Shown in pieces: positions 1 through 15,587 of a stretch of 64,000 nucleotides of DNA. Both the position numbers and the translations under genes were made by a program. The DNA lies in the IMG/VR virus record IMGVR_UViG_3300022699_000278, positions 1-64,000 of that record, one strand, 5' to 3'. The stretch is from a virus. Each line of letters starts with the position of its first letter. Positions within the stretch are counted from its first letter, which is position 1. The notes under the pieces were generated by a model, which saw nothing but the letters and a program-made list of their open reading frames with translations, did not search any database and was not told the origin of the DNA.

Positions 1-493
1 CCGACTGTCGGGAGGAATTGATGGTGGATTTGTCGTATGCCCGCACCCACCCCCCCCCCGACTGTCGGGAGGAATTGACGGTGGCGGTACCGGATACATG
101 CACTTCTCCACTCTCCAGATTTGACACCTCGTGTTTCCCGGCCAAAAATATCAGAGATACATTTCTGCGTCCTGCCAAGTCGTGAACGCTGTCCTCTGCA
201 AATATGTGGTACCTGAACCACTCTGGAAGAGCGTCTCGACAAGCGATTTCAGCCTCTTGTGCATTGTACCACTCCGGAACCTCCCGTTGAACAGTGTTAT
301 ATTTCCATTCGGCAAGAGGTGTGCTGTAGTCATAGTCTGGTGGCACAAGCTCTGTCCGTACAAAATTTACTTCTCGGTCATTAAGACTGTTTTCCGTTAT
401 TATGTCCTCGTGAGAATCCGATACATCAGAAAACAGGACGTCACTCCGGGTAACTATAAATGATGCTGCTCTACACATTAGTGCTCTACACAT
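1..493 (-). CDS. 18-residue-repeat protein, copy 1 (partial, runs off the left edge)
   Basis: The reading frame from ATG 493 (or the in-frame ATG 478) runs off the window at base 1. The first ~110 codons are nearly identical to the gene at 486-1181 (shared segments VNFVRTELVPPDYDYS and PEWYNAQEAEIACRDALPEW), followed by the same GTxTVNSSRQSGG repeats. The site GAGGAGGG lies upstream of the start. A duplicated 15-nt segment gives two in-frame starts. The C-run at 50-59 (G10 in the coding strand) adds one residue relative to the normal repeat. Function unknown; repeats of this kind suggest a beta-solenoid stalk. Confidence 0.7.
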   Translation of the reverse strand, partial: MCRALMCRAASFIVTRSDVLFSDVSDSHEDIITENSLNDREVNFVRTELVPPDYDYSTPLAEWKYNTVQREVPEWYNAQEAEIACRDALPEWFRYHIFAEDSVHDLAGRRNVSLIFLAGKHEVSNLESGEVHVSGTATVNSSRQSGGGWVRAYDKSTINSSRQS

Positions 494-521
494 TAGTGTG
501 TCCCTCCTCGTTAATTGTGCC
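1..521. repeat. Segmental duplication, left copy
   Basis: Bases 1-521 match about 704-1209 at a nearly constant offset of 703 (688 beyond a 15-nt insertion near 479-493). The duplicated unit includes the start, the Shine-Dalgarno site and the last codons of the upstream gene, so both copies keep the same stop/start overlap. The structure points to a tandem gene duplication by unequal recombination. Confidence 0.85.
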
Positions 522-1181
522 ACCGAGAGACATAACCAGTCCCCCTGACTGCTTAGTGGAATTGACGGTGGAAGTGTCGTATACCCACACCCATCCCCCT
601 GACTGCTTAGTGGAATTGACGGTGGAAGTGCCGTATGCCCACACTTCTCCCCCCGACTGTCGGGAGGAATTGACGGTGGATGTGCCGTATGCCCGAACCT
701 CTCCCTCTGACAGCTGAGAGAAATTGACGGTGGAAGTGTCGCAAGCCCACACACTGCCCCCTGACTGCTGAGAGGAATTGACGATGGAAGTGCCGTATGC
801 CTGAACATCGCCACTCTCCAGATTTGACACCTCGTGTTTCCCGGCCAAAAATATCAGAGAAACATTTCTGCGTCCTGCCAAGTCGTGGACGCTGTCCTCT
901 GCAAATATGTGGTACCTGAACCACTCTGGAAGAGCGTCTCGACAAGCGATTTCAGCCTCTTGTGCATTGTACCACTCCGGAACCTCCTGTTGATCAGTAT
1001 AATATTTCCAGCCGGCAATAGGTATACTGTAGTCATAGTCTGGTGGCACAAGCTCTGTCCGTACGAAATTTACCTCTCGGTCATTAAGACTGTTTTCTGT
1101 GATTATGTCCTCGTGATAATCCGATACTTCAGAAAACAGGACGTCACTCCGGGTAACGATGAATGATGCTGCTCTACACAT
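486..1181 (-). CDS. 18-residue-repeat protein, copy 2
   Basis: 231 residues from ATG 1181, preceded by GAGGAGGG; the start overlaps the stop of the upstream gene in ATGTGTAG, implying coupled translation. Residues 1-125 form a globular-looking part with conserved Trp, Tyr and acidic residues. Residues ~126-220 are about five 18-residue repeats of the type GTSTVNSSxQSGGEVWAY. Alternating small, polar and beta-branched residues suggest a beta-solenoid. The last 11 residues (GTINEEGHTNV) are also the end of the upstream 99-aa protein, because the duplication copied that junction. No enzymatic motif is visible; a surface or virion-associated role is only a guess. Confidence 0.75.
   Translation of the reverse strand: MCRAASFIVTRSDVLFSEVSDYHEDIITENSLNDREVNFVRTELVPPDYDYSIPIAGWKYYTDQQEVPEWYNAQEAEIACRDALPEWFRYHIFAEDSVHDLAGRRNVSLIFLAGKHEVSNLESGDVQAYGTSIVNSSQQSGGSVWACDTSTVNFSQLSEGEVRAYGTSTVNSSRQSGGEVWAYGTSTVNSTKQSGGWVWVYDTSTVNSTKQSGGLVMSLGGTINEEGHTNV
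540..800. repeat. 54-bp tandem repeats
   Basis: About five units of 54 bp, each with a core like GAATTGACGGTGGAAGTG, encode the 18-residue repeats on the minus strand. Some units contain the small palindrome CCCGACTGTCGGG. Two units of the other copy lie at 1-115. Confidence 0.85.
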
Positions 1182-1209
1182 TAGTGTGTCCCTCCTCGTT
1201 AATTGTGCC
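704..1209. repeat. Segmental duplication, right copy
   Basis: Partner of 1-521. It carries the N-terminal two thirds of the repeat-protein gene plus its leader. Differences are scattered and mostly conserve the frame, so both copies appear to be under selection. Confidence 0.85.
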
Positions 1210-1473
1210 GGTAATGGTTTCGGGGACACCTTCATATTCCGGCAAATCCACACAGGCTATTTTGCATTCTAACTTATTAAGAGCCAGTTCCCATGTTTCG
1301 CCGACACTCATAAATAGATGGTCGTCTTTGTCACTGACAAATATCATACATTCTCGTCTTACTGATTGATCGTTGTCGTATGTCTCATCATATTTAAAGC
1401 TTACTCTTGATTTTTCGGGTGCTATTAAAAGTGTCCGTTTTTTTACTGATGCAAAATCCATATTTACCCCCAT
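1174..1473 (-). CDS. Hypothetical protein (99 aa)
   Basis: Starts at ATG 1473 (a second ATG follows four codons on) and ends with GTINEEGHTNV, the same tail as the protein at 486-1181; the stop overlaps the next start by 8 nt. The C-terminal half (ETWELALNKLECKIACVDLPEY) resembles the AQEAEIACRDALPEW segment of the downstream repeat protein, so the two may share a small domain. No recognised family. Confidence 0.6.
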   Translation of the reverse strand: MGVNMDFASVKKRTLLIAPEKSRVSFKYDETYDNDQSVRRECMIFVSDKDDHLFMSVGETWELALNKLECKIACVDLPEYEGVPETITGTINEEGHTNV

Positions 1474-3128: not shown

Positions 3129-3827
3129 CTATTTCAAATCAGCACACGATTTTACTTTCTGTACCCATCTTGATGTGCTTTGTTCTCTATAATATTCTCT
3201 GAATCGCCATGTTTTAGTGTATAATTCGTCCAACAGGTGCCCTACCGCATACGGCATCCTGAATGTCAGAGAAGAGCCAGGTTCTCCTATGGGAAACTTC
3301 CATGTGCCCTGATCAGTAAGCATCTGATCCCTTCCAGGCTTTCCTCTGCCCCGCTCCAAGTCAATCGTTTTTTTGTCAGGTATAAGCCAGTGCCGCTTCA
3401 CTCCTTTAAACACGTACTCACTCGGTATCTTCTTTCCCTCTTTGTAGTAGTCGTAGGTGTGATACAGCATATCTCCCACTGGAAGCCAGAAATACACATC
3501 AATGGTCGGTGTTCCCTTCAGCTGATCTTCAACCGGTTTGAAATGGACATTAAGCATCTTCTTTGTAACGTCATTGAATATCGGCTTTTCCACCTTGTAT
3601 CCGTGACCGGTAATAGCTGAAATCAGCTTGTTTTCATCGCACTGTCCGTAAAGTACACCGATGTCTATATCATAGTCCAGCGAGAATGTTTTATCCGCTG
3701 CATATTCCAGCATGTTACCGAAGCAGAAACACCACCACAACTTTTCACCGACTTCGTTTTCCTGCATATCCATAATGTTTGTAATATCATCAAGAAGTCG
3801 CATTGCCATTTCATTTTTGTTTTTCAT
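3129..3827 (-). CDS. LicD-like nucleotidyltransferase-fold protein (232 aa)
   Basis: The segment FCFGNMLEYAADKTFSLDYD followed by IDIGV (residues ~33-57) matches the LicD/fukutin pattern in which a Gly-rich turn is followed by an acidic D.DIDIG metal site. The rest (W..P..., GKPGRDQM) fits the compact LicD layout. LicD proteins transfer phosphocholine or a similar phospho-group to glycans. It is the last gene of the glycan operon and overlaps the preceding glycosyltransferase gene by 17 nt. The substrate is unknown. Confidence 0.7.
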   Translation of the reverse strand: MKNKNEMAMRLLDDITNIMDMQENEVGEKLWWCFCFGNMLEYAADKTFSLDYDIDIGVLYGQCDENKLISAITGHGYKVEKPIFNDVTKKMLNVHFKPVEDQLKGTPTIDVYFWLPVGDMLYHTYDYYKEGKKIPSEYVFKGVKRHWLIPDKKTIDLERGRGKPGRDQMLTDQGTWKFPIGEPGSSLTFRMPYAVGHLLDELYTKTWRFREYYREQSTSRWVQKVKSCADLK

Positions 3828-4755
3828 TGATAATTCTCCTCAAGTGTTCCGCAGCAGGTTTAAGAGATATGTTTTCTCTGTATTTTTTAAGAATAACTTC
3901 TTTTTGTTTTTCAATATCAATGTGTTTTATTGCCATCAAAACCCTTCTCCAGAAATCATGCTTATCTATAACATGAACAGGATATTTTTTCTTCCAGAAC
4001 TGGCAGCTATCCAAAGCAATCACCGGTACCCCACAGGCAAGCGCCTCCGGTATGATTCTCGGGCATGAGTCTTCTGAAGTGTACGGAGCGAGAATTACCT
4101 TGCATTTAGATATGGCCCTCGGCATTCTGTCATGGAATACAAGCTTCACAGAGACGTTTGAAGGGGCTTTGCATGCGTGTCCCATTTGGAGTACACTTAA
4201 TCCCTTTGGCACAGTTCTATGTACCCAAGCTACGTTCTTGCGTCTATCCTTTGACCAAATAGCGGAAAACCCAATGTCGTACTTCTTCTCTACTGCGCGT
4301 GGAAAGAATATCGGAGCAGCAGGCTTGAAGAATAGTTTTCCCACTATACCATGTTTTTTACACTTGTTAACCTGTTGCTCCGAATCACACATAACAAAAT
4401 CATATTTAATACTGTCTTTTGGTATACACCCATGGTTGGCACCGTAATAAATCTTTTTTGCTTTCGGGAACTGCTTCAGAAATGGAACATATTCCTTAAA
4501 TCCACCACGAGCTACAATAATGTCTGGCTTGGAAACGGTGAGGTCGGCCGCCTTGAAACCTTTAGTCCATGTTTCAACAAAATTATTTTTATAAATTACA
4601 GTTCTGTTACCATTACTGTACATTACTTGGCCGTAATCGTCCTCATACACCAATCCAGCAAACAAGTGTGTCCACATATCTGTACACTCATCCAGCGATT
4701 TCCACGCACATTCTTTATGACGCTCCATTTTACCCCGTAAAAATAGCCAGTTCAT
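3811..4755 (-). CDS. GT-B glycosyltransferase, GT4-like (314 aa)
   Basis: The C-terminal half has the family-4 donor site: EDSCPRIIPEALACGVPVIA, with two Glu seven residues apart followed by the A.G.PVIA turn. The N-terminal half is an acceptor-side Rossmann-like domain. Length is at the short end for the family, as in the other GT4-like proteins here. Start overlaps the previous stop. Sugar and acceptor cannot be read from sequence. Confidence 0.8.
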   Translation of the reverse strand: MNWLFLRGKMERHKECAWKSLDECTDMWTHLFAGLVYEDDYGQVMYSNGNRTVIYKNNFVETWTKGFKAADLTVSKPDIIVARGGFKEYVPFLKQFPKAKKIYYGANHGCIPKDSIKYDFVMCDSEQQVNKCKKHGIVGKLFFKPAAPIFFPRAVEKKYDIGFSAIWSKDRRKNVAWVHRTVPKGLSVLQMGHACKAPSNVSVKLVFHDRMPRAISKCKVILAPYTSEDSCPRIIPEALACGVPVIALDSCQFWKKKYPVHVIDKHDFWRRVLMAIKHIDIEKQKEVILKKYRENISLKPAAEHLRRIINEKQK

Positions 4756-5378
4756 ATTTCGGCCTTTGCCTTTGCTTTTATTTTAAACCATTTTTCCTTA
4801 TCTGGTCCAGTCCACAATTTACTTTTCCGTAGTTCCGGGGTATAAAAACAATAATGAAGTATTTTGCTTTTTGCCATTTTATAATTGAATTTACCATAAT
4901 TACTTAAACTGGCCCTTTTTTTGTAAGGTATATACGTAAGTCCCGGCTTCCACTTATACGCTTTTATGTGAGGTTTCGATGGATATGGTTTTTTGTGTTT
5001 CCAACCATCTACAGACGGAGCAGGATAAGCATAATTAAAAGCTAATTGCTGTTTGTTGCTTTTTTTTAATCTTCTTAAATCATCTTCTATACCACTACCG
5101 AAAGATTCGTCTTCATCAGGAAATAAAACAAGATCGGGTTTAACATCATCAAGCATTCGCAAGAGTTCTTCTCTCCATACAAAGGCATTCCAATTCGAAG
5201 CAGATATATATATTCCACCAAGTTTATTGCCACATATACCAGGGATAGCTTCGATTATTTTTTTATCGCCAACAATGCCGTCAAATCGCAAGTATACTTT
5301 ATCCACAAGACCAAGCAAATCACAAAGACATTTATTATAATACTGAAACCTACATAATGCCATTAATCCTACTATCAT
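4752..5378 (-). CDS. GT-A-like glycosyltransferase (208 aa)
   Basis: Start placed at ATG 5378, which overlaps the upstream stop as ATGA and removes an unsupported extension. The N-terminus MIVGLMALCRFQYY, the segment VYLRFDGI and the acidic LVLFPDEDE (~residues 83-91, a DxD-type metal site) fit a GT-A fold of the GT2 or GT92 kind. The C-terminal half is Lys/Trp/Tyr-rich. The specific family is uncertain. Confidence 0.6.
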   Translation of the reverse strand: MIVGLMALCRFQYYNKCLCDLLGLVDKVYLRFDGIVGDKKIIEAIPGICGNKLGGIYISASNWNAFVWREELLRMLDDVKPDLVLFPDEDESFGSGIEDDLRRLKKSNKQQLAFNYAYPAPSVDGWKHKKPYPSKPHIKAYKWKPGLTYIPYKKRASLSNYGKFNYKMAKSKILHYCFYTPELRKSKLWTGPDKEKWFKIKAKAKAEI

Positions 5379-5983
5379 CTCACATCCACCAAATACCATC
5401 GTTTTTGTTTTGTGCACCAGACAATATTGCCAATCGACAGGCTGTCAAAATCATAGTCGATGCTTTTTATATGGTCCTCAAGGTTCCTGCGAAATTCAAT
5501 AAATCCGCTTTTGGAATGGTTTCTATGCTCATCTGCGTTCCAGTTATACGGCTTTCCCTTGGCGAATTTAAGCCATGCACGTTCTGGATAATATACATGC
5601 TGCATGTATATTACCGGAGATATCGCCATACACAGCCTTTCAGGAAATACGATGTCGGTTTTAACTTCATCAATATAATACACTTCCGGGCAAAATTCTT
5701 TAAGGCGGCTCATCATATCAAAAGTTACCGTTGCTTCTTGCCTCGTCTTCGTCGTTTTGTTGAATTTAAATGAATAAAACACTTTGCAGCCAAAACTTAC
5801 ATTGTTGTCGTTGTCGAGCTTTATGTAATAGGACCAATTACCATAATATATGTATACGTTATTTATTTCTGCCGCCCAAAACCCTCGTATGCGACCACTA
5901 TTTTTTTTTCTGTGAATACCGTCATCGGGGCACCTATGGTTACCCTTTTTAATTTTTCGCGCTTTTCCAGTAATTGTGATCAT
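5375..5983 (-). CDS. Glycan-cluster paralogue A, possible kinase-like fold (202 aa)
   Basis: Related along its length to the protein at 14198-14797: both have a DDGIH/EDGVH motif near residue 20, KVFYS/KVYYS in the middle, and end with SIGNIVWCTKQKRWYLVDV against KIGDMMWHSKEKRWYLCDI. The ending resembles the N..W......L.D.. stretch of kinase-like folds, but no ATP-binding loop is clear. Both copies sit among glycosyltransferases, so a role in the same pathway is inferred. Confidence 0.6.
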   Translation of the reverse strand: MITITGKARKIKKGNHRCPDDGIHRKKNSGRIRGFWAAEINNVYIYYGNWSYYIKLDNDNNVSFGCKVFYSFKFNKTTKTRQEATVTFDMMSRLKEFCPEVYYIDEVKTDIVFPERLCMAISPVIYMQHVYYPERAWLKFAKGKPYNWNADEHRNHSKSGFIEFRRNLEDHIKSIDYDFDSLSIGNIVWCTKQKRWYLVDVR

Positions 5984-5999
5984 GTTATCGCCGTTTCAC

Positions 6000-6063
6000 T
6001 ATTGAGAAGAGTTGATGAAGGATGTGAGAATCGGTAACATACCCCCATTAACTCTTCTCAATA
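6000..6063. repeat. 14-bp perfect inverted repeat
   Basis: TATTGAGAAGAGTT at 6000-6013 pairs exactly with AACTCTTCTCAATA at 6050-6063 around a 36-nt loop. It fills the gap between two minus-strand genes. It could be an RNA hairpin, a repressor site or the remains of a small insertion; no U-tract follows. Confidence 0.75.
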
Positions 6064-6078
6064 TTGTATAAAATGCCG

Positions 6079-6279
6079 TTAGGTATTTTGAGTTGAGTCC
6101 GTTGGCTGCTGTGCCTGTGATTCTTCCATGTTTTTCTGATCAGCGACAATTTCGTAACCACTTAACACTTTCCCGATACAACCCGTAAGAACGCCGAGAG
6201 CAATAATATTTGGAAGACCACTTACTGCATCATCAACCATAGTGATCCTTCGTTTCAAATCATCAACATTAATTTCCAT
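6079..6279 (-). CDS. Hypothetical protein (66 aa)
   Basis: ATG 6279 has GGAG 8 nt upstream; a TTG two codons earlier is less likely. The sequence has one apolar stretch (LPNIIALGVLTGCIGKVL) and a polar Gln-rich tail. A small membrane-associated protein is possible. No family recognised. Confidence 0.5.
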   Translation of the reverse strand: MEINVDDLKRRITMVDDAVSGLPNIIALGVLTGCIGKVLSGYEIVADQKNMEESQAQQPTDSTQNT

Positions 6280-6460
6280 AAACAATCTCCAATTTAAGGT
6301 ATGCAGTGCCAGAGGTGTTCCGGGGACAACCCGCTAATCGGTACTTACTGAGCCTTCCGGACGGCGACCGAAACCTTTGCACATGGCATTGCATACTTTG
6401 GTCGTTGGGCAAAATGCCGTTGTCATAAGAGTTGCTTACCATAAATAATAGAAAACCCAT
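6269..6460 (-). CDS. Possible small secreted or membrane protein (63 aa)
   Basis: ATG 6460 has AAAGGATC about 11 nt upstream. The N-terminus MGFLLFMVSNSYDNG is short and hydrophobic. The rest is Arg/Pro-rich and overlaps a hairpin-forming stretch with GTTGGGC on the plus strand, so the ORF may be fortuitous. It overlaps the next gene by 11 nt. Confidence 0.35.
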   Translation of the reverse strand: MGFLLFMVSNSYDNGILPNDQSMQCHVQRFRSPSGRLSKYRLAGCPRNTSGTAYLKLEIVYGN

Positions 6461-6614
6461 AAAAATAATGATCCTTTCCCGGAGTAAATAAATGACCTTT
6501 ATTTGGATCAAATCCATGATAATGAGATGTTCCTATAAGCCAAAGACGCTTTTTTAATATGTTGACATTGATAAATCGCCACGCACATCTTACAACAGAC
6601 AATAAAAGTTCCGC

Positions 6615-7010
6615 TTACGCTTCAGGCTTCGCCACATTGCTTTCAGCAACGTCTTTTATCGCCGTACCGTTGTTTTGCGATTCCTTATTATTCAATGCCC
6701 ACTCCGTACCTTCAAAGAGATCACCGTTCAATTCGCGAGTGAGCCGACCGTACTTCCGATTAATATTGTGCCGCTCCAGGTCGTGGCCAAGGTGACACTT
6801 TTGACAAAGAGCCGCAAGATTTGATTCTGACAAGTCGTGCTTCTCGTGATTGAGATGCGCCACGGTGAGTACAACTTTCGACCTGGTTACAGGATGCGGC
6901 TTGCCGTTTTCGGCACCGCACCACTCGCACTTGTTGGCGGCACGTTCAAACCGAATGCGTCGGCTAACTTCATGCCAATTTTCGGGATATTCGCTGTAAT
7001 CTATGGGCAT
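6615..7010 (-). CDS. HNH endonuclease (131 aa)
   Basis: Start moved to ATG 7010, which has GGAGAACTG upstream and gives the usual family N-terminus MPIDYSEYPENW. Zinc/HNH pattern: CEWCG, then VAHLNHEKHD with SNLAALCQKCH, i.e. C..C, H..H and C..CH. Such phage proteins nick or cut DNA and occur as free-standing genes. Upstream is an attC-like hairpin, and the gene looks like an inserted accessory unit. Confidence 0.85.
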   Translation of the reverse strand: MPIDYSEYPENWHEVSRRIRFERAANKCEWCGAENGKPHPVTRSKVVLTVAHLNHEKHDLSESNLAALCQKCHLGHDLERHNINRKYGRLTRELNGDLFEGTEWALNNKESQNNGTAIKDVAESNVAKPEA

Positions 7011-7034
7011 TGTACAGTTCTCCAAGAGCAAAAC

Positions 7035-7102
7035 ATTTACACCAACGGATTCGGGCAATGTACGAAGCGGGGCCGTTTCCGTTTGTACTTGCCGTGTTAG
7101 GC
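7035..7102. other. attC-like hairpin between small genes
   Basis: Read on the plus strand: ACACCAAC, a 5-nt spacer, CGGGCAATGTAC (7052-7063), a loop, GTACTTGCCG (7085-7094), then GTTAGGC (7096-7102). The inner arms pair with an extra-base bulge and GTTAGGC fits the integron GTTRRRY core, but the opposite core is imperfect. The 12-mer ATTTACACCAAC at 7035-7046 recurs at 19427 and, reversed, at 39791. Confidence 0.4.
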
Positions 7103-7127
7103 TATGTACTACGGCCTCTCCTCATTC

Positions 7128-7262
7128 TTAGCGCGCTCGTTCTTCGGTTTTAATCATGCTTAATTGCCCACATGCTGCACCAGCTTTGATTTCTGCCTGT
7201 GTAGCAATGGCAACTGCATAGTCGTAACCTGCATTGTCAAGCGCCTGTTTAATAGTTTCCAT
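7128..7262 (-). CDS. Separate C-terminal fragment of the RlmN-like radical SAM enzyme (44 aa)
   Basis: ATG 7262 has AAGGAG 6 nt upstream, starting right at the stop codon of the radical SAM gene. The peptide contains ALDNAGYDYAVAIATQAE and AACGQL. AACGQL is the invariant C-terminal motif of RlmN/Cfr proteins, whose Cys carries the methyl group during catalysis. In normal RlmN this segment is fused to the radical SAM domain; here it lies 1 nt out of frame and has its own ribosome-binding site. It is either a split enzyme or a +1 frameshift product. Confidence 0.65.
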   Translation of the reverse strand: METIKQALDNAGYDYAVAIATQAEIKAGAACGQLSMIKTEERAR

Positions 7263-7272
7263 TACCGACTCC

Positions 7273-8058
7273 TTAGATTAAATTTATTCCCTGTATTGCA
7301 CCTTCACCCAACCCGTGCAATTCAGAGCATTCGTTTTTATTGATTGGGCTCAATTTGATAAAGAAACATTCTGGATCAAAGTATTCTTTTAGCTTCTCTA
7401 TATCAAAATCGGATTCGTCAACTAAAGTCATATTGACGGTTGTTTTAAGCTTACTATCCGTTTTGATTAGACCAAGTTCTTTGTAGGTTAATTTATTCTT
7501 GAATGGAATAAGCCAATTTCTTTTTTCTTCATTCAAACTATGGACACTTACCTGTAGAGTGATGTTGTCTTTGACCCAAGAAAAATCAGAACCTTTAATT
7601 CCGATAGTGGACAGATAGTGGTGTGTGTCTGGAAACATAGTATCAAATAACCATATTGCCTGTTTCACTTCTTCGACATTTAGGAACGGTTCACCCATTC
7701 GGGTATAATTAATTTTGTGTTCCTTTGCGTTTTGAAAACTATAGCATGGATTTTTGGATAACACAAACTCAATCTGTTCCAGTATTTCAAACCTTGATAA
7801 ATTGCGACACCTTTTCAATTTTCCTGTTGCACAAAATTTGCACCCGACAGGACAACCACTCATACACGATACACCAATCATCCAACGCTCTGACCTATCA
7901 CCTGTAGAGGTGTAATCAAGAGCATTCTGCTTTCTTCCGATTGCGTCTTTTGTATAGTACGGAAGAAAGGTATCTGTTACCTCGACCGGATAGCCATCTT
8001 CAGTTTCGAGAAGATAGACCGTTCCGTTTGTAAATGACTTGCTGTTTATTTCTTTCAT
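7273..8058 (-). CDS. RlmN-like radical SAM protein lacking its C-terminal tail (261 aa)
   Basis: Start placed at ATG 8058 (GAAAGG upstream). CPVGCKFCATG (about residues 69-79) is the CxxxCxxC iron-sulfur site in RlmN spacing, followed by an RNLSRFEILEQI helix and YTRMGEPFLNVEEV, matching the family GEP motif. TVNMTLVDESDFD and FFIKLSPIN match later core strands. The protein stops before the catalytic-Cys tail, which is found in the next ORF at 7128-7262. The N-terminal resolving Cys of RlmN appears to be Gly here, so the target may not be A2503 of 23S rRNA. Confidence 0.8.
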   Translation of the reverse strand: MKEINSKSFTNGTVYLLETEDGYPVEVTDTFLPYYTKDAIGRKQNALDYTSTGDRSERWMIGVSCMSGCPVGCKFCATGKLKRCRNLSRFEILEQIEFVLSKNPCYSFQNAKEHKINYTRMGEPFLNVEEVKQAIWLFDTMFPDTHHYLSTIGIKGSDFSWVKDNITLQVSVHSLNEEKRNWLIPFKNKLTYKELGLIKTDSKLKTTVNMTLVDESDFDIEKLKEYFDPECFFIKLSPINKNECSELHGLGEGAIQGINLI

Positions 8059-8083
8059 GGTTTTTGCCTTTCGAGCGCGCCTC

Positions 8084-8257
8084 TTATGTCTTGGGCCTGT
8101 TGTAAGATGTGCCTGCACTCAGTTTGGAAAACCAAGTAATCCCATCTTCTGATACGTATTCGCCTCCACAATTATCAGTAAGAAGCCATTTTTTACCGTC
8201 AAATGATAATAAAGAAGCCATATATTCTGATCTACTCAATTCACCATAATTTGGCAT
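8084..8257 (-). CDS. Hypothetical protein (57 aa)
   Basis: ATG 8257 has AAGGAAAA at good spacing. It contains LLSFDGKKWLLTDNCGGEYV and a WFSK motif, a small beta-rich-looking protein. Its stop lies 25 nt before the radical SAM start. No family recognised. Confidence 0.5.
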   Translation of the reverse strand: MPNYGELSRSEYMASLLSFDGKKWLLTDNCGGEYVSEDGITWFSKLSAGTSYNRPKT

Positions 8258-8317
8258 TTTAATTTTCCTTTTCCTTTTGTCTTCCGGCGGCGTTCCTCTG
8301 TATTCGGGGCAGGTTTA

Positions 8318-8339
8318 TTGCGCCCAACTCCCTCAGGCA
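8318..8339. other. Conserved 3'-end element of accessory gene
   Basis: On the minus strand GCCTGAGGGAGTTGGGCGCAAT spans the stop codon. The paralogous gene at 22269 ends with the same layout, GCCTGAGAAC then GTTGATTGCAAT, and 38987-39010 has GCCTGAGAGT then GTTGGTAAAATA. GTTGGGC matches the integron core consensus GTTRRRY. Confidence 0.4.
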
Positions 8340-8617
8340 CCCGCCCGAAGTGGCTTTGTGAAACCCTCGCATTCATGCATTGTCCACTTGCCCTTATAAG
8401 GGATCTCGACACCACGACACCCTTCATTTTGGCACGTTTCACAAAGACATTTTGGGCTGCCTGTGTTGGTGGGCGTGTTTTCGCCATCCGCATTTTTCTG
8501 CCGGGCGGCGACCTTGCGAGTAACAACCTCTGTCAACATCGCGTGAGCCATCGTTACGAGTGCATCGTCTGGCGCTCCACTTACCGCGCTTATCAAGTTT
8601 TCTGCCACCTTATCCAC
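8333..8617 (-). CDS. Cys-rich hypothetical protein (94 aa)
   Basis: GTG 8617 is preceded by GGAAGG. CLCETCQNEGC is a likely metal-binding cluster, with a further CEG near the end. NTGSPK in the middle and LRAGA at the very end are shared with the protein at 22269-22586, and the DNA around both stop codons is also alike, so the two genes have exchanged 3' ends or share a mobile end. Function unknown. Confidence 0.6.
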   Translation of the reverse strand: MDKVAENLISAVSGAPDDALVTMAHAMLTEVVTRKVAARQKNADGENTPTNTGSPKCLCETCQNEGCRGVEIPYKGKWTMHECEGFTKPLRAGA

Positions 8618-8663
8618 GATCTACCACCTTCCCCGCCCGGCCTACAATTCTCCAGGCGAAAAT

Positions 8664-8698
8664 ATGTACACCAACTATACGTTATATGTAATGTACAT
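8664..8698. other. Recurring leader element (ATGTACACCAAC plus TGTAATGTACAT)
   Basis: Upstream of the 8333-8617 gene, the minus strand reads GTACATTACATATAACGTAT then AGTTGGTGTACAT. The same order (GTACATTAC.CATA, then GTTG) occurs at 22623-22652, and GTACATTACACATAA occurs near 28287. Confidence 0.45.
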
Positions 8699-8715
8699 GA
8701 GATACACCATTATTA

Positions 8716-8940
8716 TCAATGTCTTATGTTTGGGTATAGTTTTTTTGTATCTATGCCTTTTCTCTGACTTGCGCGTAACGCCACAATCTGTATTCCATGG
8801 TTTATGGTAGCCTGATTATTTTTGTTACCGCCAACAGAAGCAGATACATCCTCATAATATCTTTTCATAAACCTTGTCAGATTTCCATTAAAACCTTCAA
8901 GGGTATGACCACATTTAATTACTCTTTTCTTTTTTTCCAT
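8716..8940 (-). CDS. Hypothetical basic protein (74 aa)
   Basis: Starts at ATG 8940; no Shine-Dalgarno site is visible, but an AT-rich TATATA stretch lies ~8 nt upstream, so the message may be leaderless. CGHTLEGFNGNLTRFMKRYY is followed by an amphipathic stretch. No family recognised. Confidence 0.4.
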   Translation of the reverse strand: MEKKKRVIKCGHTLEGFNGNLTRFMKRYYEDVSASVGGNKNNQATINHGIQIVALRASQRKGIDTKKLYPNIRH

Positions 8941-8975
8941 AGTACAAATATATACTTGTACATAAGTAGGCGCAA

Positions 8976-9569
8976 CTATTTTTTTGCAAGGATTATATAA
9001 ATGCCATTGTAGTCACGTTTTCCAGTAAGCTGCAGGTCTGACTCGTACCCGTGCTCTTTCAACATATACTTTAATTTGCTGGTATTCCAATGTGGTAGCG
9101 GATTGGCTCCAATTTCATCATGACCATATTTGAAAGGATCGCCACTTCTGGTGTGTATAACAACCTTGTTGCAGCGTTCAAAGACCGTATTTAGTTTTTT
9201 TATTTCGTCATCATTTAAGTGGTGCAATACATAGCTTGCTAAAAACAGATCAAACTCAATTTTATCCAGATCAACAAACTCGAACATTTCATTTATCAGG
9301 GTAACATCTTTTCCTTCAAGGGTTACCTTCGATTGCTTGTAGTACTTTCTGTTCACCTCAATTCCGGTATACCCGGCAATTATTCTGTATAAACATAGCG
9401 CATACATCCCTGCATTAGAACCAAGCTCAAGAACTTTAGCGCCCTTAAAGAAATCAATATTGTTTTCTATCATCGGCAGTCTTTTCTTCAGTTTGTTGTA
9501 TTTCTGGTATACCTTATCGCCCTTCTTCCAGTTCTTTGATATTTGCCGGTATTCTTTTTCGGTGATCAT
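8976..9569 (-). CDS. SAM-dependent methyltransferase A (197 aa)
   Basis: Start placed at ATG 9569, overlapping the upstream stop as ATGA with AGGAAC upstream. VLELGSNAGMYALCLY is the class I SAM-binding motif (E.G...G). It is followed by GIEVN, the acidic residue expected to bind the ribose, and DLFLASYVLHHL as motif IV. Closely related to the N-terminal domain at 14427-15587 (both begin with MITEKEY/MLLTKKQY, then WKKG or WKKH, VYQKY). It probably methylates a glycan in this cluster, but the substrate is unknown. Confidence 0.8.
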   Translation of the reverse strand: MITEKEYRQISKNWKKGDKVYQKYNKLKKRLPMIENNIDFFKGAKVLELGSNAGMYALCLYRIIAGYTGIEVNRKYYKQSKVTLEGKDVTLINEMFEFVDLDKIEFDLFLASYVLHHLNDDEIKKLNTVFERCNKVVIHTRSGDPFKYGHDEIGANPLPHWNTSKLKYMLKEHGYESDLQLTGKRDYNGIYIILAKK

Positions 9570-9760
9570 TTTACAGTTCCTATAATACAAACCATATCGT
9601 CCGGAAAGTTACAATCAGCACTTTCAAAGCTTATTTTCTCCATACCAAAACATTTGTCATCAGCAGCTATTAAGTACTTCCATCCTCCACGTTCTTCATA
9701 ATGCATCGGCTCTTTTGGCCCATCTACGTATCCATACCTATACTGATACTCATCTTTCAT
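9566..9760 (-). CDS. Hypothetical acidic protein (64 aa)
   Basis: ATG 9760 overlaps the stop of the preceding 33-aa ORF by ATGA. Aromatic and acidic (YRYGYVDGPKEPMHYEE, GGWKYLIAADDK). It sits tightly between coupled genes of the glycan operon. No family recognised. Confidence 0.55.
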   Translation of the reverse strand: MKDEYQYRYGYVDGPKEPMHYEERGGWKYLIAADDKCFGMEKISFESADCNFPDDMVCIIGTVK

Positions 9761-9858
9761 GGGTGAAACCCTACCGATCTATCGTTTGGCCTTGTAGACG
9801 TACACCTGCTTAGTATTTCATCTTTTGTGTATTTTATATATATATTTGATTGACTCAT
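9757..9858 (-). CDS. Micro-ORF coupled on both sides (33 aa)
   Basis: ATG 9858 overlaps the upstream stop as TAATG and its own stop overlaps the next start as ATGA; AGGG lies close upstream. The peptide begins MSQSNIYIKYTKDEIL. Such tight coupling on both sides strongly suggests translation. Function unknown. Confidence 0.55.
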   Translation of the reverse strand: MSQSNIYIKYTKDEILSRCTSTRPNDRSVGFHP

Positions 9859-10118
9859 TACCCTATTAAATACGACTTAGAAAATCTTTTTTTTAAAAGC
9901 TTTTCCCTTTTCTTACCCTCAGTAGTTTCCCACCAGTCCTTATCGTATTCTTTATTATACTCCAAAAGTTTATATGACATTTTCTTCGCCATACGCTCAG
10001 CTTCTACAAGCTTTTTACGCACCCTTCTGTCATGTTTTTTGTCACCTTGGTGAAGATCATTTATTTCTCTGAGGACTTCGCAAAGAGTTCTTACCTTAGT
10101 TGCTCTTCGTAACGACAT
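9858..10118 (-). CDS. Hypothetical basic helical protein (86 aa)
   Basis: ATG 10118 overlaps the glycosyltransferase stop (TGATG). Very rich in Lys, Arg and Glu with long helical stretches (RRVRKKLVEAERMAKKMSY). It may bind nucleic acid or a partner protein; no family recognised. Confidence 0.55.
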   Translation of the reverse strand: MSLRRATKVRTLCEVLREINDLHQGDKKHDRRVRKKLVEAERMAKKMSYKLLEYNKEYDKDWWETTEGKKREKLLKKRFSKSYLIG

Positions 10119-11080
10119 CACAGCGCCACAGCACTTTCTTTTTTAACGTCAATCAACACACTTTCAAATGCTTTCTTATACTGCCTGGCAATAGTATCTA
10201 TATGGATGTGTGCTGGCACAATCATCGTCTTCCTATATGACAAAAGCCCATCAAGTGCTTTTTCAACCAATTCAGTATCTATTGGGGGTGGGCTGTTTTT
10301 CTGCAACGTTGGCTTTATTGGCTTACTGTCCAGTGGAAGTATTGCACCATACTCTTTTACTATTTCGGCGTTGCCGCCGATATTGCCTGATATAACAGGT
10401 GTCCCGGCAGCAAGAGCTTCAACAACAGCATTGTCACACCATGAAAACCAGCAGATGCTTACCATCACATCTGCCATAACCAAGTATCGGCGCAGCAGCT
10501 TTTCCGAAACATCTCCTACATATTTAATCTGTTCTTTTGATTTTCTTTCTTCTCTTATTTTGCCACAAAACCAGAAACACACATCGGAGTGTTTTTTTAT
10601 ATAATTCTCAGCAATACGAATCATTTCTCTCATCCGCTTATGGGGCCTGACTTTGCTGGATACATATCTTCCTGAGACTATAACATTCTTTGGGTACTCC
10701 GAATCCATTGGCTCAACTTTATAATCTTCAGGATTAGCTCCGTTATATATAATAAACTCCTTTTTGCCCCTAACTCCAAGTATCTTGGTTACCATGTCGT
10801 ATGCGAATTTTGTCTGGTAGATAACACCGTCACTAGTTTTTATCGTGTGCTTTATCATTTTCCTGCGCCAATCGTATTTCTTATCCTTTTCCAGATGAAT
10901 CCCGTCTATTCGAATCACTTTTCTGCCTTTAGGCTTTTTCTTCCAGTACGACAGCCCAAGTGTCAAATCTGGCTTGCTGGTGACTATTTCAACACCATTT
11001 CTCTCAAGTGCAGGAATAAGCCGTTGTATAAACTTGCTTTTCCCGGTTGAATTCTTCTCGTATTGTATAGCTATTTTCAT
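10118..11080 (-). CDS. GT-B glycosyltransferase, GT4-like (320 aa)
   Basis: N-terminus MKIAIQYEKNSTGKSKFIQR contains the acceptor-side Gly-Lys loop typical here; YQTKFAYDMV and IIYNGANPEDY match the linker; the donor site is CDNAVVEALAAGTPVISGNI, with Glu and Gly residues of the GT4 pattern. Closest relatives in the window are 13250-14191 and 15599-16546. Sugar unknown. Confidence 0.85.
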   Translation of the reverse strand: MKIAIQYEKNSTGKSKFIQRLIPALERNGVEIVTSKPDLTLGLSYWKKKPKGRKVIRIDGIHLEKDKKYDWRRKMIKHTIKTSDGVIYQTKFAYDMVTKILGVRGKKEFIIYNGANPEDYKVEPMDSEYPKNVIVSGRYVSSKVRPHKRMREMIRIAENYIKKHSDVCFWFCGKIREERKSKEQIKYVGDVSEKLLRRYLVMADVMVSICWFSWCDNAVVEALAAGTPVISGNIGGNAEIVKEYGAILPLDSKPIKPTLQKNSPPPIDTELVEKALDGLLSYRKTMIVPAHIHIDTIARQYKKAFESVLIDVKKESAVAL

Positions 11081-11202
11081 ATGTCTATGCTCGTGATAGA
11101 TACTAAGTCACTAACCTCAAGGTCTTCAAAGGAAGGTGTGAGCATCTCCAAAAACTTACCTTTCCCAAATTCATTTAACTTATATTGAATGTGAAGTTTC
11201 AA
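11077..11202 (-). pseudogene. Stand-alone N-terminal fragment of a GT4-like glycosyltransferase (41 aa)
   Basis: A TTG start at 11202, with AGGAA 8 nt upstream and overlapping the upstream stop, opens MKLHIQYKLNEFGKGKF. This matches MKIAIQYEKNSTGKSKF of the next gene and MKIHVNPKYYARGKTGKGKF at 13250-14191. The ORF ends after 41 codons, overlapping the next start as ATGA. It is probably the relic of a deleted glycosyltransferase copy, still translatable. Confidence 0.6.
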
Positions 11203-11915
11203 AGAATACGTTCCTTGTAATAATTATAAAGTTTATTCCATTTATCATGAACAGTTTTGTTTTTTCTACTACAATGCCAAATAATAGAATCATCAGAAAA
11301 TTGATTATCATTATATTTTTTACCAAGTTCCTGAAAATCTATTTGGTCCTTAAATTTATTGTAACATTTCCACAAATATTTCTGGTCGTCATACCATTCC
11401 AAATGTCGTTCAAGTTTTTCATTCAATCGTTTCAACAAAGCTCGTGTTATATTACTATTCCCTAAAACAAATACCCCTTTCTGTAATTTTCTTTTGTCCG
11501 ACTGATCAGGTTTATACATAATCTTCATTGTATTCGCTTTAACATTTTCCCACAACTCGTCAAGATTTCCTCTTACTATAATATCGACATCCATATGAGC
11601 AACTTTTGAATATCCTTCATTTAATGCATCTACCATTGGTGCCGTTCTTTTTGACATTATTGAATTACCATAAACATGATTTTTGTATGTAGAAATATTT
11701 TTTTCAGATAATATTGAATCTCCATAAACATGGATTCTGCGAACTGTTATATTTTTGTAAACATTTTTTATTTTTATACATGATTCTTCAGATAAATCAT
11801 ATGCATATACCAACACTTTTTCATCAAGAGCATTCTCGGAGATTGATTTTAACATAACGCACAATTGTTCAACATAATTACCATAATTGTTTATTTCCAC
11901 AGTAATTATATTCAT
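11199..11915 (-). CDS. GT-A glycosyltransferase, GT8-like (238 aa)
   Basis: KVAHMDVDIIVRGNLDELW (about residues 105-123) is the D.D metal site and following helix of GT8-type enzymes, and SIIWHCSRKNK near the C-terminus is the matching His-containing end motif. The N-terminus (VEQLCVMLKSI) fits the first Rossmann helix. Strongly AT-rich compared with neighbours, which may mark recent acquisition. Confidence 0.7.
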   Translation of the reverse strand: MNIITVEINNYGNYVEQLCVMLKSISENALDEKVLVYAYDLSEESCIKIKNVYKNITVRRIHVYGDSILSEKNISTYKNHVYGNSIMSKRTAPMVDALNEGYSKVAHMDVDIIVRGNLDELWENVKANTMKIMYKPDQSDKRKLQKGVFVLGNSNITRALLKRLNEKLERHLEWYDDQKYLWKCYNKFKDQIDFQELGKKYNDNQFSDDSIIWHCSRKNKTVHDKWNKLYNYYKERIL

Positions 11916-11943
11916 AGTAATATTTCTACCTTATTTTTTAGGT

Positions 11944-12702
11944 TCATATCGGAAACATCGTGTTTTCTCTGGTAATGCCCTTTTTTTCCATCTGTCGCAA
12001 CCGCTTCTTCTGCAATTGTTTCGTTTCTTTATACCATTTATTATCAGCTTTTCTCTTCTTATGTTTCTCCTCCGAATGCTTCCGATAGAAAGCAACCGGA
12101 ATATCAATCTTTTTCTTTTTGACGTGATTAAACGGCGAATCTGGATGTATCCCGAGGCGCATGCTCATTTCCTTGTCTTCTCCTGATCGCAGCCCTTCGT
12201 ACCAGCCGCCGAATCGCTCAAACACTCTTCTCCTGTACATAACTGTCTGCGGATTTACCTCTGAGGGATGTACTCTCAGTTTACGCATCTTCTGGCATGC
12301 CTCATAGTACATCAAATCACCACGTACTTCGAGCGCCTTACCCCATACAACATCTATTTTCGGGTGTTTATCGAGGTATATTTTCTGCAACCTCAAAGAA
12401 CCTGGCACACGCATGTCATCGGCATCGAGAAATGTAATGTAGTCTCCTTTAGATATTTTAAGCCCTATATTCCTCGCCACCGAAACACCACCGTTCACAT
12501 TCAAGGGTATATAATGTATGTTTCGTTCGGGAAATTTAAAAGGCCGGAAGATGTCGTTTACCACGTCCTTTGTTTGGTCGGTACTTGCATCGTCAACTAT
12601 TATTACCTCTAAGCTGTCTTTGTCGAGTTCCCACACTACCGAATGAAACGCGCTCATAATGTATCTGGCATAGTTATATGTCGGTATTATTACGCTAATC
12701 AT
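11944..12702 (-). CDS. GT2 glycosyltransferase (252 aa)
   Basis: ISVIIPTYNYARYI at the start, VIIVDDASTD (~35-44) and ITFLDADDMRVPGS (~87-100) are the three classic GT2 signatures, the last holding the metal-binding D.DD. GWYEGLRSGEDKEMSMRL carries the ED acceptor-loop motif. The C-terminal 50 residues are a very basic tail. It should transfer a sugar from a nucleotide donor. Confidence 0.9.
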   Translation of the reverse strand: MISVIIPTYNYARYIMSAFHSVVWELDKDSLEVIIVDDASTDQTKDVVNDIFRPFKFPERNIHYIPLNVNGGVSVARNIGLKISKGDYITFLDADDMRVPGSLRLQKIYLDKHPKIDVVWGKALEVRGDLMYYEACQKMRKLRVHPSEVNPQTVMYRRRVFERFGGWYEGLRSGEDKEMSMRLGIHPDSPFNHVKKKKIDIPVAFYRKHSEEKHKKRKADNKWYKETKQLQKKRLRQMEKKGITRENTMFPI

Positions 12703-13253
12703 AGCATTCCCATAACTTTCTTCTCAAATTTACCGCCCTTGTGCGATCCCGGCTTGTTGTCCTCTGCAATCTGAACCGGCACAAACTCCATTCCAACAGC
12801 ATACATGGCAGCACACCTTCTGCCGCCATGGTATATTTCATATCCTGTAAGCCAGTCGGCAAGGTATTCAAACCGCGTCTTCCACAATGGTTCTGCAAGC
12901 ACCAGCACCGGCTGTGCTGCATTACGGCTTTTGCTGAAGCCACGCTTCTTTATACTCTTGAGTATTTTATACCTGGACCCAAAGATATGCTCCTTAATAG
13001 CGCTTTCAGTCCACTTCTTCATACCAAGCTTATACCTCCACCTGCGGTCCTCTGCAAATCGGCAATGCTTTAATACCGTCCAGTTCCGCCCGTGTTTAAG
13101 AAGCATCTGCGCACACTCCACCTGCGGACTCTTCGGAAGGCTCATGTCGTATCCCCATATATCGTGGTTTATCAGCTTAGGGATAAACTGATATTTCAGT
13201 TCACGCAGTGGAAGGCTTACCGGTTTTCCTTCGAGGAGGGCGTATTCACTCAT
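12699..13253 (-). CDS. Glycan-cluster paralogue B, ParB-like C-terminus (184 aa)
   Basis: Start overlaps the upstream stop as ATGA. VECAQMLLKHGRNWTVL parallels INAASVLLNHRGTWRV in 24828-25298, and both have a C-terminal G.EI..G......G...VPV segment. The ending GYEIYHGGRRCAAMYAVG, then VPVQI, resembles the ParB/sulfiredoxin fold. No catalytic proof. Its place between two glycosyltransferases suggests a role in the same pathway. Confidence 0.5.
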   Translation of the reverse strand: MSEYALLEGKPVSLPLRELKYQFIPKLINHDIWGYDMSLPKSPQVECAQMLLKHGRNWTVLKHCRFAEDRRWRYKLGMKKWTESAIKEHIFGSRYKILKSIKKRGFSKSRNAAQPVLVLAEPLWKTRFEYLADWLTGYEIYHGGRRCAAMYAVGMEFVPVQIAEDNKPGSHKGGKFEKKVMGML

Positions 13254-14191
13254 ATCAGCGCCCTGAAGAAGGTTAAATACTGTTTGGCAATATTCTGAAT
13301 GTATAATTCCTTAGCCAAGCCCTTATCGTAGTTCCATGTCAATGATTCTTTCATGGCCTTTATAAGGACTTCCTGATTTATCTTTGGTGGCTTGTTGAGA
13401 TTTACCGGTCTGTATTTAAACGGTTTATCTTTCAATACCTTCCCGAATACCAGCAACTCATGCGTACCACCCTGATCTGTGCATATTACCGGGAGCCCGG
13501 CCACTTGTGCCTCAACAACACTGTTCGGACATGCGTCCACATAGGTAAGATGTATCATCGCGTGGCACGATCTATAATAAACCGCCAGTTTGTCATCTTT
13601 TACATTGTCCTCAAATATTATGTTCCCGTTGTTACCGTACTTCTTATTATACCCCAGAGTGTCGCCGCAAACATAAAGCGTACTCTTTGGAATTCCAGCT
13701 TCAAGAAACGCTCGTATAATTTGATTCAGACGTTTTTGTTTCAACCATACTCTCGTGCTTGCTAAAAATATTACCCGCTCCGGATCGGTTTTTATAAGTG
13801 GCTCTACACCATAATTCCGTGGGTCGGCACCGTTGAGTATCACTGTCTCCGGTTTGTTCGGTTTGCATACAAGCTTGTGATAAATCTTTTGGGCGTAGAA
13901 GGACTGATAAACAACGGCGTCAGCCTTTTTAACTGAAAGCGCCTTTTCGTTGTTTATCTTACGCCAGTTCATATTGGTGTCAATATTTGCTGGCCCAACG
14001 CGGATAACCTGTACCTTGGCTTTTGAACCATAGTTCATCCTACCGATATTAAGAGCAATGTCCGCTTTGGCCTTCGAATCAGGAGTAACGTTTATACCCA
14101 TTTCATGCCATGCTTTAACAAGGCGTTGGCAAAATTTACCTTTCCCGGTTTTCCCACGGGCGTAGTATTTTGGATTTACATGTATCTTCAC
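13250..14191 (-). CDS. GT-B glycosyltransferase, GT4-like (313 aa)
   Basis: ARGKTGKGKFCQRLVKAWHE at the N-terminus, VILNGADPRNYGVEP in the linker and VDACPNSVVEAQVAGLPVIC (~235-254) as donor site, followed by TDQGGTHELL. Paralogous to 10118-11080. Overlaps the next gene by ATGA. Confidence 0.85.
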   Translation of the reverse strand: MKIHVNPKYYARGKTGKGKFCQRLVKAWHEMGINVTPDSKAKADIALNIGRMNYGSKAKVQVIRVGPANIDTNMNWRKINNEKALSVKKADAVVYQSFYAQKIYHKLVCKPNKPETVILNGADPRNYGVEPLIKTDPERVIFLASTRVWLKQKRLNQIIRAFLEAGIPKSTLYVCGDTLGYNKKYGNNGNIIFEDNVKDDKLAVYYRSCHAMIHLTYVDACPNSVVEAQVAGLPVICTDQGGTHELLVFGKVLKDKPFKYRPVNLNKPPKINQEVLIKAMKESLTWNYDKGLAKELYIQNIAKQYLTFFRALI

Positions 14192-14197
14192 ATTTCC

Positions 14198-14797
14198 TCA
14201 ATCAATATCACAGAGATACCACCGCTTTTCCTTTGAGTGCCACATCATATCTCCTATTTTGTAACTGCCGAACGTTTTTACACCGTGTTTTGCCTGTGTT
14301 CTTTTCGCCCATTTAACAAACTTCTTGTACCCTTCCGGCGAGTGATCGAGGTGTGAGTCTGCACCCCAATCATACGGTATTCCATACATGTAGTCCTGCC
14401 ACGCCTTTTCCATGGCAGGAATGTGCTCAGTCTTTATCGCATAAGCCTTCGCCTTGTGCAATGTTCTTTTGAACAGAAGGTTTATGTTCACCTGTACTAT
14501 TTTCATTGGCTTTGGTGCTACGCCGAGTTCGTGGAGCTTTTGCCACTTTTTGAATATCTTTTTCACGTACCGGAGCTTTTGTGCTTTTTTCCATGACAGG
14601 CTGTAATACACCTTCATCCCCACTATCCTGCTTTTTTGTACGTAGATTCCGACCCGTCCCTTTGGCAACATCTTTCCTTTGAGTAGTACCGCGTGGCTTC
14701 CCTTCAGAAACCCGTCCTTGCCATTGACGTGTACTCCGTCCTCGGGAGCTTTCATCTTTTTCCTCTCGATGAACTTCAGCACTCCCTTTATCTCCAT
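14198..14797 (-). CDS. Glycan-cluster paralogue A, second copy (199 aa)
   Basis: ATG 14797 follows AAGGAGG, a strong site. It aligns with 5375-5983 from the PEDGVH motif to the RWYLCDID end, which shows this frame is the conserved one. Its first 371 nt are also open in the frame of the upstream methyltransferase. Basic N-terminal half, acidic Trp/His-containing C-terminal half (GADSHLDHSPEGYKKF). Function unknown. Confidence 0.7.
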   Translation of the reverse strand: MEIKGVLKFIERKKMKAPEDGVHVNGKDGFLKGSHAVLLKGKMLPKGRVGIYVQKSRIVGMKVYYSLSWKKAQKLRYVKKIFKKWQKLHELGVAPKPMKIVQVNINLLFKRTLHKAKAYAIKTEHIPAMEKAWQDYMYGIPYDWGADSHLDHSPEGYKKFVKWAKRTQAKHGVKTFGSYKIGDMMWHSKEKRWYLCDID

Positions 14798-15587
14798 CCA
14801 GAGCCTCCTTGGTTTCTGCGTCTATGCTTTCCTGCATTGCCTTTTCCTCAATGCTCCTCATCTCTTCTTTGGTTGTCCCATTTTCTGCAGCAGTTTTTTT
14901 TACCGCCTTGGCACCCTCGGCCAATTCCTCCGTGATTTCTTTTGTGTATGTCGTCTTTTCAGGCTCAACAAACCCCGGCTTCGTTCCGATCACAATATGG
15001 AATTTTTTGTCAGGCCCGAACTCCCACTTTGTCTCGAAGCCGTTTTTCTGCAGGTAGTTTATCACGCTGTTGTAATGCCAGAATGCATGGTTGTTGTGCT
15101 TTCGGCGACCTTTTTTGTTTCTTTTGGCATATCGACTCATTACAATGATCACATCAACTTTCGGCAGCACGTTCTTCTGAAACATGTCCACCTCTTTGTC
15201 ACTGAAGTGATAGAGAACATACGAAAGGAAAACCGCATCAACCGGTCGCGAAATAGTCCCTCGTGCAGTTCTCCGCATAAACGTTTTAACGCTCATGTTC
15301 ATGAACTCAACGTCCTTGTTTTTAATTTGCTTTTTGATTTCCAGGGCCTGGTTATAATACCCATTCTCGCCCTCAACACCGGTATACGATTTTGCAATCT
15401 GAGCAATATGATACCCGGCGAGCCCGGCATTTGAGCCAACTTCAAGCACATTTTTCCCGGTAAACAGGGTGATATGCTTCAGCAGCGTAGGAAATCGAAC
15501 AGTATACCTGTCGTATTTTTGGTATACCGTTCCGTGCTTTTTCCAGTCCTTTGAAAGTTCGTTGTATTGCTTTTTAGTCAGCAACAT
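14427..15587 (-). CDS. SAM-dependent methyltransferase B with long overlapping tail (386 aa)
   Basis: ATG 15587 has GAGGAG upstream. VLEVGSNAGLAGYHIAQIA is the SAM motif, VDAVFLSYVLYHFS the motif IV region; together with the N-terminus this is a paralogue of 8976-9569. After about residue 215 the protein becomes a Lys/Glu/Arg/Thr-rich, low-complexity tail, and its last ~123 codons overlap the 14198-14797 gene in another frame. The tail may be a real disordered extension or simply the lack of a stop. Confidence 0.75.
   Translation of the reverse strand: MLLTKKQYNELSKDWKKHGTVYQKYDRYTVRFPTLLKHITLFTGKNVLEVGSNAGLAGYHIAQIAKSYTGVEGENGYYNQALEIKKQIKNKDVEFMNMSVKTFMRRTARGTISRPVDAVFLSYVLYHFSDKEVDMFQKNVLPKVDVIIVMSRYAKRNKKGRRKHNNHAFWHYNSVINYLQKNGFETKWEFGPDKKFHIVIGTKPGFVEPEKTTYTKEITEELAEGAKAVKKTAAENGTTKEEMRSIEEKAMQESIDAETKEALDGDKGSAEVHREEKDESSRGRSTRQWQGRVSEGKPRGTTQRKDVAKGTGRNLRTKKQDSGDEGVLQPVMEKSTKAPVREKDIQKVAKAPRTRRSTKANENSTGEHKPSVQKNIAQGEGLCDKD

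Follow-up and report, generated by a model that had tools for sequence, protein, structure and literature searches.

Class A radical S-adenosylmethionine (SAM) methylases perform their chemistry with two cysteines of one polypeptide chain. RlmN is a dual-specificity methyltransferase that acts on C2 of 23S rRNA A2503 and tRNA A37 (TIGR00048; PDB 3RFA, 5HR6, 6FZ6), while Cfr, Cfr(B) and Cfr(C) methylate C8 of 23S rRNA A2503. In the literature searched, RlmN and Cfr each consist of a single chain that needs two cysteines, and one of these, RlmN Cys118 or Cfr Cys105, is indispensable for resolving a protein-RNA crosslink that the C118A mutant traps (PMC9692996, PMC13001441). Here we describe a relative of these enzymes that is divided between two genes in IMG/VR record IMGVR_UViG_3300022699_000278, a 71-kb virus contig; positions 1 to 64,000 of that record, the whole stretch analyzed, are called the window. 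One gene encodes a radical SAM core and the other a small protein, the tail, that bears the candidate methyl-carrier cysteine. We read the pair, with a probability of about 0.7, as a two-component, class A-like enzyme of the RlmN/Cfr type in which the methyl-carrier cysteine is supplied in trans by the small protein. No description of the split pair was found in the literature searched, which was open-access only, so that a report elsewhere is possible.

Both genes lie on the minus strand of the window. The core gene (7273..8058, ATG at 8058, TAA stop at 7273..7275) encodes a 261-residue RlmN-like radical SAM protein without the N-terminal domain and C-terminal tail of RlmN. It carries CxxxCxxC at residues 69-76 (C69, C73 and C76) and TRMGEP at residues 119-124. 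After a gap of 10 nucleotides between the two open reading frames (ORFs; 8058-7273 and 7262-7128), and in a frame that differs by 1 nucleotide, the tail gene (7128..7262, ATG at 7262, stop at 7130-7128) encodes a protein of 44 residues, METIKQALDNAGYDYAVAIATQAEIKAGAACGQLSMIKTEERAR. Its ribosome-binding site AAGGAG, read directly from the sequence at 7269..7274, overlaps the core stop codon and ends 6 nucleotides from the tail ATG; equivalent sites occur in many relatives. The core stop codon is not a conserved recoding site. AACGQL occupies tail residues 29-34, which makes Cys31 the candidate methyl carrier, and the C-terminal sequence is AACGQLSMIKTEERAR. By alignment, the window tail appears to be the counterpart of the C-terminal helix, strand and AACGQL loop of RlmN. 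A preliminary description of this DNA, made from its letters alone, had reported the 261-residue frame with CxxxCxxC and GEP that ends before the family tail, the following frame with its own AAGGAG and AACGQL, and the offset of 1 nucleotide between them; all three hold at these coordinates.

The same description proposed comparing both frames with RlmN and Cfr profiles, and this comparison gives a partial RlmN match for the core and, for the tail, an alignment of AACGQL with RlmN C-termini. The core scores 66.7 bits (E 1.8e-18) against TIGR00048, the RlmN equivalog model, over model positions 102-242 of 355 only, and so falls below the curated cut-off of 290 bits across the full model. Model positions 1-101 are unmatched, no RlmN N-terminal RNA-binding domain is found in the core, and about 68 residues stand ahead of CxxxCxxC. 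A PDB profile search with the core finds RlmN 6fz6 at 1.4e-25.

Relatives were collected from IMG/VR, GenBank phages and some cellular assemblies through scans with the core and a core alignment. The split layout, meaning a tail-less core whose tail is encoded close by, on the same strand, in an ORF of its own, is present in 81 of 92 non-redundant loci, the window included; the preliminary description had proposed looking for the split in related phages. Intact fusions in all close relatives would, by that description, have told against it, yet no close relative has one; the fused proteins closest to the window protein, bacterial L108 and L109, share about 30% identity with it. GenBank phages with relatives include Bacteroides phage 'tikkala', Moorella phage MTATph1, Pectobacterium phage Wc4, Yersinia phage P778 and Vibrio phage D479, and in the cultured Bacteroides, Moorella, Pectobacterium and Vibrio phages examined both proteins are currently annotated only as 'hypothetical'. 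Leaving the window out, the tail lies within 110 nucleotides downstream of the core in 45 loci, further downstream in 32, many of which have intervening genes, and upstream in 3. Among the 45 immediately downstream tails the frame is +2 in 21, +1 in 18 and in frame after the stop in 6, and the core stop is TAA in 27 cases, TAG in 10 and TGA in 8. Tails range from 36 to 108 residues, with a median of 41.

Co-occurrence of the two genes was seen from both directions. A tail profile finds a tail gene in 55 of 56 core-bearing records, the exception being a 26-kb fragment, and when tails were scanned for independently, 71 of 77 tail loci had a core no more than 5 kb away; the other six comprise two contig ends, one locus with a core 5.6 kb away and three records with no core. 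Between the window and its closest relative, L002, the tail shows nonsynonymous divergence (dN) of 0.14 and synonymous divergence (dS) of 1.17, and is thus under purifying selection. The tail is more than a chance ORF, because it is under purifying selection, co-occurs with the core and aligns by profile with the C-termini of RlmN and of fused relatives. The core gene of locus L016 is internally broken (L016:3983-4394) while its tail gene is intact. In Vibrio phage D479 a separate tail protein contains two tandem AACGQ units, hence two candidate carrier cysteines (L020:3854-4078).

The active site departs in part from that of RlmN. CxxxCxxC is present in all 81 split cores, and TRMGEP is invariant in the core alignment. 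The column of RlmN Cys118 holds Gly in 81 of 81 split cores (Gly62 in the window), so that the replacement of the resolving cysteine noted preliminarily for one protein proves general. Neither the resolving cysteine (RlmN C118, Cfr C105) nor any other conserved cysteine beyond the three cluster ligands is found among the 81 cores, and in six of them the cluster cysteines are the only ones. Cys65, three residues past the Cys118 position, was considered as a stand-in and rejected; it is Cys in 27 of 81 cores and Thr or Val in most relatives. RlmN Glu105, the activator of the carrier cysteine, corresponds to Glu26 and is Glu in 36 of 36 aligned split cores and in all RlmN and Cfr rows. Arg120 of TRMGEP changes together with the loss of that cysteine: among the aligned proteins, all 39 of 39 that lack Cys118 have this arginine, vs. 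0 of 14 that retain Cys118. In class A enzymes the carrier cysteine belongs to an AACGQL segment of the same chain; here it sits on a separate protein, in the motif ACGQ in at least 76 of 81 tails and ACGM in 2 of 81. Because the second cysteine essential to RlmN is missing, the chemistry probably differs from the characterized RlmN reaction.

By profile comparison, the tail corresponds to part of an RlmN-type enzyme. Its profile aligns with RlmN/Cfr C-termini through AACGQL (hhalign probability 90%) and, ungapped over 34 residues, with the C-termini of the naturally fused L108 and L109 (probability 94%). Concatenated core and tail align with these two proteins along their length. Searched alone against Pfam, NCBIfam and PHROGs, the tail matches no convincing family. 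For structure prediction we chose relative L036, where the tail follows the stop in frame, and read the stop through to obtain one chain. AlphaFold2 models this chain as a single RlmN-like fold, with a confidence score (pLDDT) of 86 and a predicted template modeling score (pTM) of 0.87; pLDDT is about 88 in the tail helix and about 60 at the CGQ end. The best PDB matches of the model are RlmN 6fz6 (E 2.9e-15), 3rfa, 5hr6 and 4pl1, and Cfr 9p0p. Since the modeled chains are covalently joined, docking in trans is supported by this result, not proven.

In a phylogenetic tree, proteins without Cys118 (the split cores, L108/L109 and L024) stand apart both from the phage fused proteins that bear Cys118, with support 98/86, and from RlmN and Cfr. 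Placement of L024, on a long branch, is unsure, and the position of L108/L109 among the split rows is weakly supported; for these reasons a single split event is likely, not proven. Several origins were rejected. Replacement of a missing RlmN does not fit, since 18 of 20 cellular genomes with a split core also have a canonical RlmN above the family cut-off, as do both genomes with the fused L108/L109 type, and the split enzyme lacks the N-terminal domain. Descent as a vertical cellular gene was dismissed on finding the split core in just 1 of 193 genomes of one carrier's order, where it is sporadic, and a plasmid origin on finding no match among plasmids that covers 80% of the core.

Neighboring genes in relatives suggest a role related to nicotinamide adenine dinucleotide (NAD). 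Recurrent neighbors are NadM-Nudix, NAMPT/PncB, PncA, NadE, NAD kinase and macrodomain genes, of which NAD kinase and PncA were named from sequence and the remainder by Pfam matches. Genes of the NAPRTase family occur in 23 of 56 core-bearing records, and in 11 of the 23 the distance to the core is at most 3 kb (1.6 expected, P=2.7e-8). Control families show no such clustering, with counts of 0 of 17 (deoxycytidylate deaminase) and 1 of 8 (PhoH). Loci L089 and L092, on phage or chromosomal contigs, show the order PncA-PncB-Nudix-core-rSAM2-methyltransferase-tail-NadE-NADK (L089:1899-8788), where rSAM2 is a MoaA-like radical SAM protein and NADK is NAD kinase. An orphan tail gene of 46 residues sits between NadM-Nudix and NAMPT (L173:3967-6647) on a 101-kb phage contig that yielded no core; this tail may have its own role in NAD metabolism, or its partner may lie beyond the contig. 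Vibrio phage PS17B-2 has a fused RlmN-like gene with Cys118 directly downstream of an annotated ribose-phosphate pyrophosphokinase and a nicotinamide phosphoribosyltransferase, an NARP1-like arrangement (L025:134-3825).

In about 20 loci, rSAM2 and a small methyltransferase separate core from tail or adjoin them. The full cassette, core, MoaA-like radical SAM protein, small methyltransferase and tail, occurs in L003, L033, L057, L065, L082-L092, L098 and L103, and in L082-L084 it is found near chromosomal-looking genes resembling comEC and holA. A structural model of rSAM2 best matches the folds of MoaA (2fb2/1tv7), followed by the maturase SuiB of ribosomally synthesized and post-translationally modified peptides (RiPPs); SkfB is also matched. 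The window's phage does not have the rSAM2/methyltransferase cassette, and most loci are without rSAM2. Additional, different radical SAM genes are seen near the split pair in L027, L053, L054 and L093.

Several features of the family are plain from the loci collected: the two genes are separate, conserved and co-inherited, Cys118 and the RNA-binding domain have been lost, Glu105 and the carrier cysteine have been kept, and relatives are linked to NAD salvage. The preliminary description had offered two polypeptides that assemble an enzyme as one of two possibilities. Its separate genes are now strongly supported by 81 loci in which order and frame vary, while we infer the assembly itself, together with methylation of the tail, the substrate and the product. 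In the mechanism proposed, the core would bind a [4Fe-4S] cluster and SAM, and the tail protein would dock where RlmN places its own C-terminal helix, strand and loop. Conserved Glu26, equivalent to RlmN Glu105, would activate the tail cysteine for methylation by a first SAM. From a second SAM a 5'-deoxyadenosyl radical would form and convert S-CH3 to an S-CH2 radical, which would attack an sp2 carbon. The substrate is probably not 23S rRNA but a free nucleotide of adenine or nicotinamide (NAD-related). Because RlmN Cys118, which serves product release, is replaced by Gly, release would need another residue or a partner, or else the tail would be consumed. The last variant, in which the tail acts as a consumable carrier and its cysteine ends in a stable thioether to a nucleotide (an adenine or nicotinamide nucleotide, NAD or NAD-capped RNA), is suggested because the resolving cysteine is gone in all 81 split cores and the RlmN breakdown route would be unavailable; we regard it as distinctly unlikely. 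If true, the phage makes a protein-nucleotide conjugate, and a stoichiometric reaction would favor a separate, cheap and replaceable tail, which has its two AACGQ units once, in Vibrio phage D479.

Certain observations weigh against the two-component enzyme. Similarity between the tail and RlmN is largely confined to the AACGQL motif and a short helix, and the conserved upstream arginine of RlmN is missing. The docking model had its chains joined by a linker, with just six alignment rows covering the tail. Tails with no core in the record are present in L173 and L177, which have the same tail, and in L196. One tail, L075:8138-8245, has lost exactly CGQL (AGAASII) while the remainder is conserved, through decay or as a decoy. 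As to NAD, the NAPRTase gene is more than 3 kb from the core in 12 of the 23 NAPRTase-bearing records, and the window's own record has no NAPRTase, so its NAD link rests on relatives.

Two of the competing explanations keep the two genes but change what the pair does. The enzyme could be split and otherwise ordinary, methylating a tRNA or rRNA adenosine as RlmN and Cfr do, with another residue standing in for Cys118; protection of phage translation would be one possible purpose. The fold and the nearest solved structures are those of RlmN and Cfr, AACGQL is the same as in the RlmN tail, and Glu105 is kept; yet the core lacks the RNA-binding domain (nothing matches model positions 1-101), the cysteine reported as indispensable in RlmN (PMC9692996) is Gly in 81 of 81, canonical RlmN is already at hand in 18 of 20 cellular carriers, and the enriched neighbors are NAD-salvage genes. 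We consider this explanation unlikely. A RiPP-like system would instead make the small protein a substrate of the core, acting with a MoaA/SuiB-like radical SAM protein and a methyltransferase. A small conserved protein whose gene neighbors include a small methyltransferase and a radical SAM gene, or two of the latter, is a compatible layout, the rSAM2 model matches RiPP maturases SuiB and SkfB as well as MoaA, and the tandem AACGQ units in Vibrio phage D479 could be taken in the same sense. However, the tail is colinear with the C-terminal segments of RlmN and the fused relatives, and a place in an enzyme would account for its conservation; no leader/core layout, protease or exporter was seen, and most loci, among them the window, have no rSAM2. 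These points make a RiPP-like system improbable.

In the window, where the frames are 1 nucleotide apart and the AAGGAG, which resembles a Shine-Dalgarno site, overlaps the stop, the preliminary description had put forward a +1 shift at ATC-TAA-G that fuses the ORFs into one protein. That site is not conserved and no shift is needed: tails have their own ATG, many with a Shine-Dalgarno site, and the RNA fold at the junction is not significant (z -1.4). Among relatives there is free variation in frame, stop codon, spacing and gene order, and no frameshift could join core and tail generally, because 32 tails lie further downstream, many of them past other genes, and 3 lie upstream. Programmed frameshifting is accordingly very improbable, and recoding as a general mechanism was rejected. 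An assembly error or a decayed pseudogene, brought to mind by the unusual layout and by L016 and L075, where single copies evidently can decay, deserves next to no credence and was likewise rejected; a single-base error cannot account for 81 loci from many assemblies, isolate phages included, and both ORFs are under purifying selection. The two-component enzyme of class A-like type is the reading we retain.

In the window itself the pair is flanked by glycosyltransferases, a methyltransferase-like gene and small unknown ORFs. A long block of glycosyltransferase and sugar-related genes on the minus strand (3129-17340) encloses the split enzyme. At the left end of the window (460-1253) is a region of short tandem-repeat peptides, with repeats like TSTVNSSRQSGG.

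The arrangement matters for the study of class A chemistry. In phages of many hosts and in some cellular contigs, one of the two cysteines appears to have moved to its own protein, about 40 residues long, and the other to have been replaced. A natural two-part enzyme, whose tail could be added, swapped or labeled with isotopes, would make the long-debated resolution of the protein-substrate crosslink and the purpose of Cys118 testable. Given the link to NAD salvage, the pair may modify NAD or nucleotides in the conflict between phage and host, an activity that would be new.

Among known systems, phage NAD+ salvage and reconstitution operons (NadV/NAMPT and NadM-Nudix; NARP1/2) resemble the gene groups in which the split pair is repeatedly embedded, although the papers searched mention no radical SAM component for them (PMC9503650, PMC12774641). 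RlmN, the best fold match, has in common with the pair a radical SAM core that bears CxxxCxxC and GEP, the glutamate at position 105 and the AACGQL carrier segment. It is unlike the split pair in being one chain of about 355-380 residues with an N-terminal RNA-binding domain, Cys118 and MGxGEP, where the pair has two genes, no N-terminal domain, Gly at position 118 and TRMGEP. Cfr, Cfr(B) and Cfr(C) have the AACGQL carrier cysteine, and the same class A first half-reactions would be expected for them and the pair, but each is a single chain that keeps the resolving Cys105 and has the RNA-binding domain. The fused RlmN-like proteins of phages (L021-L023, L025, L124, L125) and bacteria (L108, L109) are shortened and have no N-terminal domain, as in the split cores; L108 and L109 further lack Cys118, with Thr in its place, and share TRMGEP. 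All of them have core and tail in one chain, unlike the split pair, and the phage set keeps Cys118. The RlmN C118A crosslinked mutant (PDB 5HR6/5HR7) presents a core without the resolving cysteine, which is the natural state of every split core; it is a laboratory mutant that traps a protein-RNA crosslink, whereas the split cores have acquired Gly by evolution and have their carrier cysteine on a separate protein.
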